A DNA stretch of 64,000 bases from Halocalculus aciditolerans (GTDB lineage: Archaea; Halobacteriota; Halobacteria; Halobacteriales; Halobacteriaceae), in the NCBI RefSeq assembly GCF_014647475.1, contig NZ_BMPG01000001.1:806001-870000 (forward strand). Reading direction: 5' to 3'. Shown here piece after piece: positions 19,230 through 26,151 of the stretch; position 1 is the stretch's first letter; each line of letters opens with the position of its first letter. The notes beneath the pieces were generated by a model. The model saw nothing but the letters and a program-made list of their open reading frames with translations, made no database searches and was not told the DNA's origin. A program made the position numbers and the translations under genes.

Positions 19230-19755
19230 CTACGATCCACAAAACTACTCAAAGAAACCATCGCTCGACCGGACCGAATTCTTCGTTTTCCGAACTCATT
19301 TAGCCAGAAGGCACTGTCTAGTTCTGCACCTCCTCAGCTGGCGTTTTTCCACCGAGAGATTGATGCGGTCTCTGTTTATTGTAGTAGTGCATAAACTGTT
19401 CAAGGCATTCGCGGACGCTCGACCGACTGCCCACCCACGAGTTATGGAAACGGTCGATACGCATTTTGAGCGTGTCGAACCGCTTTTCGATAAGGTTCCG
19501 GTCGGTACCGTCCACCCGAGCGTTCAACCCTAATCGAGCAAGGGCAGTCTGATAGCCGAATCTATCGGTCAGAAATACCGTATCGGAGAGATCGTGTTTC
19601 CCGCGGAGACCATGCAGGAACGCAGCCGCCGGATCGGTGCCATGCCGACCGAACAACTCGACGTCGAGAATCAGTTTCGTCTCGATGTCTATTGCAGTGT
19701 ACAACCAAGACCACTCGCCGTTAATCCCGATAGCGGTCTCGTCAACGGCGACCCT

Positions 19756-19820
19756 TGACGGCTTCGCCGTCACCAGAACGCAAAGCGTTCTGGTTGGCAC
19801 ACGAGAGCTCCGCTCTCGTG
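19756..19820. repeat. Hairpin cluster inserted in the transposase gene (first site)
   Basis: Three perfect hairpins in a row: 19756-19772 (7-bp stem, loop TTC), 19772-19794 (10-bp stem, loop AAA) and 19800-19820 (9-bp stem, loop TCC). Comparison with the expected IS6 protein shows that about 55 bp here is extra and causes the frameshift. One arm of the first hairpin is transposase sequence itself, the other arm is the inverted copy. Confidence 0.7.
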
Positions 19821-19980
19821 AGCGTCGGCGGGTCGCAGGCGCTATCAGAGATCCGATATACCTAGTTCCAAACCGCTCTATGTGAGCGTTCAACGCCTAA
19901 TTCCGCGAGAATCGTTTTCATATCACGAAGCGAACAACAGGTTTCGTGGAGGGTGGCGGCGAACGCCCTGACGGGTGTCC

Positions 19981-20026
19981 CCAGAGATCTTCGATTTCTG
20001 GGTGCGAACGAGCGCTCCGCTCTCGT
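19981..20026. repeat. Hairpin cluster inserted in the transposase gene (second site)
   Basis: Two hairpins: 19981-20001 (9-bp stem with one G-T pair, loop TTC) and 20008-20026 (8-bp stem with one G-T pair, loop TCC). The segment adds about 17 in-frame residues to the transposase and shares its layout (loop GGA hairpin, short spacer, second hairpin) and part of its sequence with the cluster at 19756-19820. Confidence 0.65.
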
Positions 20027-20291
20027 CAACGTCACCGTCGGCTCGTTCTCCCAAGCTTCTTCTAAATCCGCGTCATCGCTCTCGCTGAGCAGGTCTGCGA
20101 GCATCTCTAGTCAAGTTACTCAACGACCTGCTCACTTCTCAAACTGACCCAACTAGACAGTGCCCTCTACCCCATTCAGTAAGACTTGCATGACGTCTCC
20201 TTGAATCACACCACCCGACGAGTGAACGTCTACATCGATGAGGAGCGAACAGCTGAACGGTCGTCTCCTCGCTCGTTATATCCGCGATGGG

Positions 20292-25878: not shown

Positions 25879-25957
25879 CGGCCTCCGGCCGTGCTTGCGG
25901 GTTGGTTCGAGAGAGCGAAGCTCTCTCGTCATCACGAAAGGCGCTTTGCGCCTTTCG
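25879..25957. repeat. Hairpin cluster in a 419-bp intergenic region
   Basis: Between the zinc-ribbon gene and the Vms1-like gene (25733-26151) no coding sequence is supported. Three perfect hairpins are present: 25879-25891 (5-bp stem, loop TCC), 25908-25928 (9-bp stem, loop GAA) and 25935-25957 (10-bp stem, loop TTT). Loop type and order match the cluster at 53.4 kb. The rest of the region shows nothing recognisable. Confidence 0.75.
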
Positions 25958-26151
25958 AACGATCTCGCTCGCCGAGCAGTCGGCCCCCTTTCGATTTCCA
26001 ACCCCGCGGTGGTTGTGGCGATGGTCTATGCGTATCTGAACACCTCGGACCGACCACGCCGCCGCGCCGAGACCGCTCTGCACCGAACGCCTCCGCACCG
26101 CCCGAGCGACGCCACCACGAGTCGATAAACCGAATGTGGCGATATGGATAT

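Follow-up and report, generated by a model that had tools for sequence, protein, structure and literature searches.

Recurrent insertion of a double-hairpin element at strong hairpins of haloarchaeal IS6-family transposase genes

The transposase gene of an IS6-family insertion sequence (IS) in the window (the whole 64-kb stretch of DNA analysed, part of a haloarchaeal genome of 3.38 Mb) carries two copies of a fixed double-hairpin unit which shows a preference for strong hairpins of this gene as insertion points. The recurrence of both points among haloarchaeal IS6 copies is a new finding. The inserts are probably copies of a non-autonomous haloarchaeal REPIN-like hairpin dimer that inserts beside CG within DNA forming strong hairpins.

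The host insertion sequence and its two inserts

The host element was assigned to the IS6 family based on its DDE_Tnp_IS240 domain, its short terminal repeats (TIRs) and the size of about 750 bp in its relatives, which are annotated as 'IS6 family transposase'. It comprises 855 bp between the TIRs GGCACTGTCTAGTT at 19310-19323 and 20151-20164, and its twice interrupted minus-strand transposase contains the Pfam domains rve_3 and DDE_Tnp_IS240. The intact relatives in other haloarchaea, of which about 70 copies were compared, have a length of 744-746 bp. The first-pass annotation of the window had described the transposase frame as interrupted at two places by about 50 bp each, and the comparison with the intact relatives bears this out with extra segments of exactly 55 bp and 54 bp. 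The same alignment, which the annotation had suggested, provided the borders of the inserts and revealed the repeated CGTC (Table 1).

Table 1. Features of the IS6-family element and of the double-hairpin elements in the window.
Feature	Position	Strand	Remarks
IS6-family IS, host of both inserts	19310..20164	-	TIRs; DDE_Tnp_IS240 and rve_3; 112 relatives aligned
Site-1 target hairpin	19748..19772		Intact relatives GCGACCCGCGACGGCGACGC^CGTCGGCGGGTCGCG; among the two strongest IS hairpins
Insert 1, double-hairpin element, subfamily with TCACCAGAACGC	19768..19822	+	55 bp; left-end CGTC repeated at 19823-19826; E=3e-18
Hairpin 1 of insert 1, accagaacgc-AAA-gcgttctggt	19772..19794	+	Homologous stem covaries
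Hairpin 2 of insert 1, cacgagagc-TCC-gctctcgtg	19800..19820	+	Covariation
Site-2 target hairpin (cgaacgcccTGACGGG ... CGTCaccgtc), split by insert 2	19960..20039		Intact relatives GACGGCGAACGCCCTGACGGG^CGTCGCCGTC; strongest or second-strongest
Insert 2, double-hairpin element, subfamily with TCCCCAGAAATC	19976..20029	+	54 bp; then CGTC 20030-20033; E=2.7e-12
Third, more divergent element copy in the window	25903..25963	-	Covariance model E=3.7e-7

On the intact transposase, insert 1 is located at residue 76 (PAE^AQPKRVAVDET), just ahead of the motif VAVDET with the first catalytic Asp, and insert 2 at residue 25 (RTAT^PVRAF) in the N-terminal part. Since the length of insert 1 is no multiple of three it shifts the reading frame, while insert 2, the length of which is a multiple of three, adds 18 residues to the N-terminal region. 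Jointly, both inserts split the gene into separate frames and thus very probably inactivate the transposase. The inserted segments also shift the transposase frame in the related carrier copies examined.

Both inserts share the layout CGTC-hairpin-spacer-hairpin-AACG. The stems are formed by CCAGAACGC-AAA-GCGTTCTGG and CACGAGAGC-TCC-GCTCTCGTG in insert 1 and by CCCAGAGATC-TTC-GATTTCTGGG and ACGAGCGC-TCC-GCTCTCGT in insert 2. A covariance model trained solely on element copies from other genomes detected them in the 64-kb window with 70 bits and 50 bits, respectively (E-values in Table 1), and this independently built model rules out chance palindromes as an explanation. The inserts had initially been taken for copies of one kind of unit; this is correct in so far as both are double hairpins of one kind. 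However, they represent different subfamilies, both of which have further members in the genome (L076 and L078), and therefore neither was copied from the other. An identity as MITE of the host IS6 element was rejected as the inserts lack the terminal repeats of the IS, and a known RNA family was discarded as well, the best Rfam match reaching 23.8 bits against a threshold of 39.8.

Empty sites and target hairpins

The proposal of the first-pass annotation that the hairpin clusters are gained as insertions, and the units thus mobile, is confirmed by their absence from all intact relatives and by the existence of near-identical empty copies. Two pairs of IS copies, L129/L042 (97.2% identical) and L168/L201 (97.8% identical), each differ by a clean 56-bp segment with CGTC at both ends. 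The empty site of L129, ...GACGGCGACGC^CGTCGGCGGG..., corresponds to ...GACGGCGACGC(CGTCTTCAG...GTGGA)CGTCGGCGGG... in the filled copy L042, and the pair L168/L201 shows the same arrangement. The left CGTC is present whatever the right flank and thus belongs to the element. CG recurs at both ends of the element, the repeated bases being CG only or, in IS6, CGTC. The recurring CG may either stem from the duplication of two bases or be target sequence that remained on one side.

The first-pass annotation had furthermore derived one arm and the loop of the hairpin at 19756-19772 from transposase codons and regarded the other arm as an inverted copy, as if made by snap-back copying. This 17-bp structure, TGACGGC-TTC-GCCGTCA, is the inner part of the site-1 target hairpin and is native to the intact genes except for the CGTC supplied by the insert: the 5' arm, the loop and the GC that begins the 3' arm belong to the transposase DNA, and the completing CGTC now lies in the CGTC repeated by the insert. 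Hence, arm and loop were recognised correctly, but the other arm is likewise native in the intact relatives, which possess the palindrome GACGGC-NNN-GCCGTC (e.g. GACGGC-GAC-GCCGTC) within a larger GCGACCCGC...GCGGGTCGC hairpin. With CGTC simply repeated by the element, the palindrome is restored to the left of it and no snap-back is needed. Although the hairpin does contain transposase codons, copying of its first arm back from the transposase DNA is refuted by the empty sites with both arms in place, and the insert otherwise consists of a repeat found across the genome, so that we give this origin practically no credence.

In about 67 of the 69 intact copies the hairpins at site 1 and site 2 occupy the first two ranks among all hairpins of the IS. 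Their mean energies amount to -15.7 and -19.1 kcal/mol, respectively, compared to an IS median of -2.8 kcal/mol (DNA parameters). An intact IS copy contains about 10.6 CGTC motifs, and a scarcity of CGTC therefore does not explain the choice of these two sites.

Recurrent insertion at the two IS6 sites

Including the window, site 1 was found to be filled in 18 and site 2 in six distinct IS copies. These counts represent a minimum (at least 17 other copies at site 1 and at least five others at site 2). It had been proposed that intact related IS with the same extra segments would speak against an insertion. Many related copies do carry segments of the same kind at the same two positions, but no intact copy does. 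Since near-identical empty copies exist, the insertion stands and repeated targeting is to be added to it. One exception to the two-site pattern was seen, a truncated element copy in reverse orientation near IS position 270 (L247).

Most of the site-1 copies had been retrieved with a query containing the insert, and the search was therefore repeated in 59 genomes with an intact IS as query. The alignment break points again concentrated at site 1 (18 observed versus 2.8 expected, P=3e-10) and at site 2 (13 observed versus 3.7 expected, P=8e-5). The recurrent sites are filled by single units of 54-57 bp, by nested units of 107 bp or by tandem units of 112 and 169 bp. One and the same site is occupied by differing subfamilies (TCACCAG, TCCTCAG, TCCCCAG; as single, double and triple tandem), site 1 holding at least three or four subfamilies and site 2 no fewer than two.

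In the IS tree, the state of site 1 requires 13 changes for 16 carriers, as expected for random labels (shuffle mean 14.8), and that of site 2 requires five changes for five carriers, which is likewise what random labelling would give. Even at distances of at most 60 bases from the site, the carriers of site-1 inserts are no nearer to one another than to empty copies (0.203 versus 0.198 for positions 400-457 and 0.233 versus 0.230 for positions 462-520). Together with the diversity of subfamilies at each site these observations argue against an entry which happened only once or a few times per site in an ancestor, followed by precise, hairpin-promoted deletion between the CGTC repeats and by recombination of the IS copies as source of the patchy distribution. 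On the other hand, the variants GGGCCGC and GTGGA each occur in 13 of the 18 site-1 inserts, though not always in the same copies, and are absent from the copies read elsewhere, so that shared ancestry, combined with recombination or with precise loss, may account for part of the recurrence in place of new insertion. An ancestral entry would also be in line with the mosaic nature of the IS copies (L014 and L193 differ by 1.3% in the left part and are distant from each other in the right part) and with the likeness of L193, L194, L195 and L014 around the site. We regard it as a serious, if less likely, alternative. We conclude that site 1 received at least three or four separate insertions and site 2 two or three, and that recombination or precise excision contributed further spread or loss.

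Two further observations concern the structure of individual copies. The left and right parts of L014 on the one side and of L193 and L194 on the other derive from different relatives, and such mosaics point to frequent recombination. In the 107-bp site-1 inserts of L193, L194 and L202, the spacer of the element encloses a different double hairpin (AGGCGAATC-TTC-GATTCGCC ... GGAGCGC-TTT-GCGCTCC), one insertion thus sitting within another.

A haloarchaeal family of hairpin dimers

The consensus of the element, flanked by CG on either side, reads TCCTCAGAACGC-NNN-GCGTTCTGATGGGCTGCACGAGAGC-NNN-GCTCTCGTGAA. A CGTYC-hairpin stands at the start from whichever end it is read, and the element is thus an inverted pair of tagged hairpins. 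It has a size of approximately 52-58 bp with stems of 8-10 bp, which start with T-A/C-G, a spacing of about 7 nt (spacer TGGGCTG) and the tags in the outermost position; the left tag CGTC is nearly invariant, while the right tag is CGTT in most copies and CGTC in others. DNA hairpins with GNA loops and a GC closing pair are unusually stable. Of 139 loops of the element, 126 consist of 3 nt. Among these three-base loops 69, hence over half, are GNA or the complement TNC, as if there were selection for stable DNA hairpins.

Covariation in the two stems is strong. Nine of the 18 stem pairs have changed on both sides, and 93.7% of the cells are paired compared to 83.5% after shuffling. The covariation score of 0.288 (shuffled 0.127) was reached by none of 500 shuffles, and controls with slid pairing did not exceed 0.089. 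Some partial matches covered hairpin 1 only and had at first been read as transposons whose ends lie apart; they turned out to be dimers in which the second hairpin has diverged.

The genome of the window contains 51-54 matches, some of them on both strands, which correspond to about 40 places. The element was matched in 38 of the 40 genomes of the set of relatives, with a maximum of 85 matches per genome. When genomes were sampled across the phylum, those of the same order were positive in 30 of about 33 cases and only two single weak matches lay outside, and this near-confinement to one order identifies the element as a haloarchaeal family. Our literature search, with subscription journals mostly outside its scope, yielded no published account of a haloarchaeal REP family beyond PMC3119063.

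Comparison with known repeats

In its architecture the element matches the known head-to-head dimers of CGTC-tagged REPs, which provide the closest description rather than a family membership. According to Di Nocera et al. 2013 (PMC3733652), these REPs are short hairpins with a CGTC tag (TGTC too) at the outer ends which form inverted dimers, are located within genes and, in the case of H. neapolitanus, also within palindromes, and for which no dedicated transposase is known. They are described there with a stem of 8-9 bp starting with two A-T pairs, a loop of 4-5 nt and a CCA tail. The haloarchaeal element resembles them in the CGTC tag on the outer end of each hairpin unit and in the inverted arrangement of two units with the tags outside. 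In contrast, its loops have 3 nt, its stems do not open with two A-T pairs, a CCA tail is lacking and the right tag is mostly CGTT, and the abstract and the CGTC section of that paper name bacteria only as carriers of CGTC-tagged REPs, whereas the present element is haloarchaeal. Because of the differences in loop size, stem start and tail we do not claim membership. With the REPINs and GTAG REPs the element has in common that the mobile unit consists of two inverted hairpins with conserved tags in the outermost position. Unlike these repeats, which are accompanied by a RAYT (TnpA-REP), it carries CGTC/CGTT instead of GTAG and is found without a RAYT, in a genome lacking any Y1 (PF01797) gene.

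Among the haloarchaeal repeats, the SMR-A of Haloquadratum walsbyi are presented in PMC3119063 as transposase-free repeats of about 110 bp with terminal inverted repeats and an open mode of movement, inserting into the near-terminal palindromes of IS605-type elements without target duplication. The present element is similar in being a transposase-free haloarchaeal repeat that inserts into IS605-type palindromes; by this description, it is set apart by its size of 52-58 bp, its two hairpins and the additional targeting of IS6 genes. The PATEs are portrayed in the same paper as short non-coding haloarchaeal elements with palindromes, of which 52-bp versions exist. The element could accordingly be imagined as a terminal-only relic of an IS605/IS1341 transposon in the manner of a PATE, its two hairpins being the left and right ends fused after deletion of the core. 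The 52-bp terminal-only elements of Haloquadratum seem to be mobile (PMC3119063), and TnpA/TnpB genes lie near the element in several genomes. However, the core deletions described there run between copies of one palindrome and leave a single one, whereas two different hairpins are present here; moreover, the few IS605-type elements examined (L105-L112, L222) have other end hairpins and are targets rather than parents. Such a derivation seems rather improbable.

Possible mode of mobilisation

In the reading as a REPIN-like dimer, the element of two inverted CGTC/CGTT-tagged hairpins would move as an intact unit and insert next to a CG dinucleotide inside DNA which itself forms a strong hairpin. 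The recognised target would presumably be a folded single strand, either a cruciform or a lagging-strand hairpin, and the mobility would be provided in trans. As the two strongest hairpins of the IS6 gene are the preferred places, the same two sites would be struck repeatedly and the transposase destroyed.

Y1 HUH transposases act on hairpins, and the IS200 type is the sole Y1 subclass reported in archaea (PMC6006769). An IS200/IS605-type Y1 HUH TnpA might be the likeliest enzyme class. However, a search for the Y1 transposase (PF01797) gave no match in the genome of the window and was positive in 26 of the 40 genomes searched. Genomes without and with Y1 have similar medians of 9.5 and 10.5 element copies, respectively; the copy number correlates weakly with the Y1 count at rho 0.32 (P=0.04, uncorrected for kinship). 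Several genomes contain elements near TnpA/TnpB genes, and where this was read the proximity to tnpA genes results from insertion of the elements into those transposons.

Alternatively, a replication fork stalled at a hairpin might switch its template via CG/CGTC microhomology and copy in another hairpin without any transposase. Hairpins as donor and target alike, the CG shared by the junctions, the tandem and nested arrays and about 40 copies in a genome without Y1 transposase would all be consistent with it. Random switching, however, would not preserve the fixed ends (CGTC...AACG) and the two-hairpin layout throughout the class, and template switching thus seems unlikely.

The spread of REP-like repeats without a transposase is treated as an open question for CGTC REPs (PMC3733652) and for SMRs (PMC3119063). 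It is conceivable, though we consider it doubtful, that a class-wide archaeal hairpin dimer spreads from hairpin into hairpin via folded target DNA without a dedicated transposase and thereby naturally inactivates other mobile elements with strong palindromes in their genes or ends.

With its two recurrent sites and its near-identical empty and filled copies, the IS6 gene offers a natural experiment, and the proposed hairpin target can be tested in genetically tractable haloarchaea. Insertion of the element would explain many broken IS6 copies in haloarchaeal plasmids as well as the palindromic parts of transposons as hot spots.

Targets outside IS6

Palindromes at the ends of IS605-type elements carry an insertion of the element at five loci (L026, L037, L040, L215, L027). 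At three of them (L037, L040, L215) it lies in the left-end palindrome of tnpA/tnpB elements. The palindrome CCCACGGC-TTTA-GC^CGTGGG near the ends of TnpB elements is filled in L027, L044 and L052. The element furthermore follows a copy of itself, head to tail at its own end, in L020, L216 and L217.

Among the 58-64 non-redundant sites outside IS6, the joined flanks of 13-23% rank within the strongest 5% of local windows, and on average they fold more strongly than the local DNA (median percentile 0.28-0.49; the KS P value varied with the flank length between 0.06 and 5e-5). Counts of pairs spanning the joined flanks of all element copies showed no general enrichment, only the energy test being positive. 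The targeting of hairpins at non-IS6 sites is thus statistical and not universal, to be understood as a preference and not as a rule.

Particular arrangements were observed in single genomes. The small genome G034, which has 85 matches, harbours in or near IS605-type elements (L215, L216 and L217) arrays in which several 57-base units from mixed subfamilies follow one another head to tail, and the arrays of L215 and L216 sit in left-end palindromes. In another genome (G005), the left-end hairpin of a tnpA-tnpB element (L222) is occupied by a tandem pair, and a further copy lies near the 3' coding end of tnpB. In genome G027, which is devoid of a Y1 transposase, five element copies (L207-L211) have homologous flanks, suggesting a larger repeat containing the element, inside which these copies may have multiplied.
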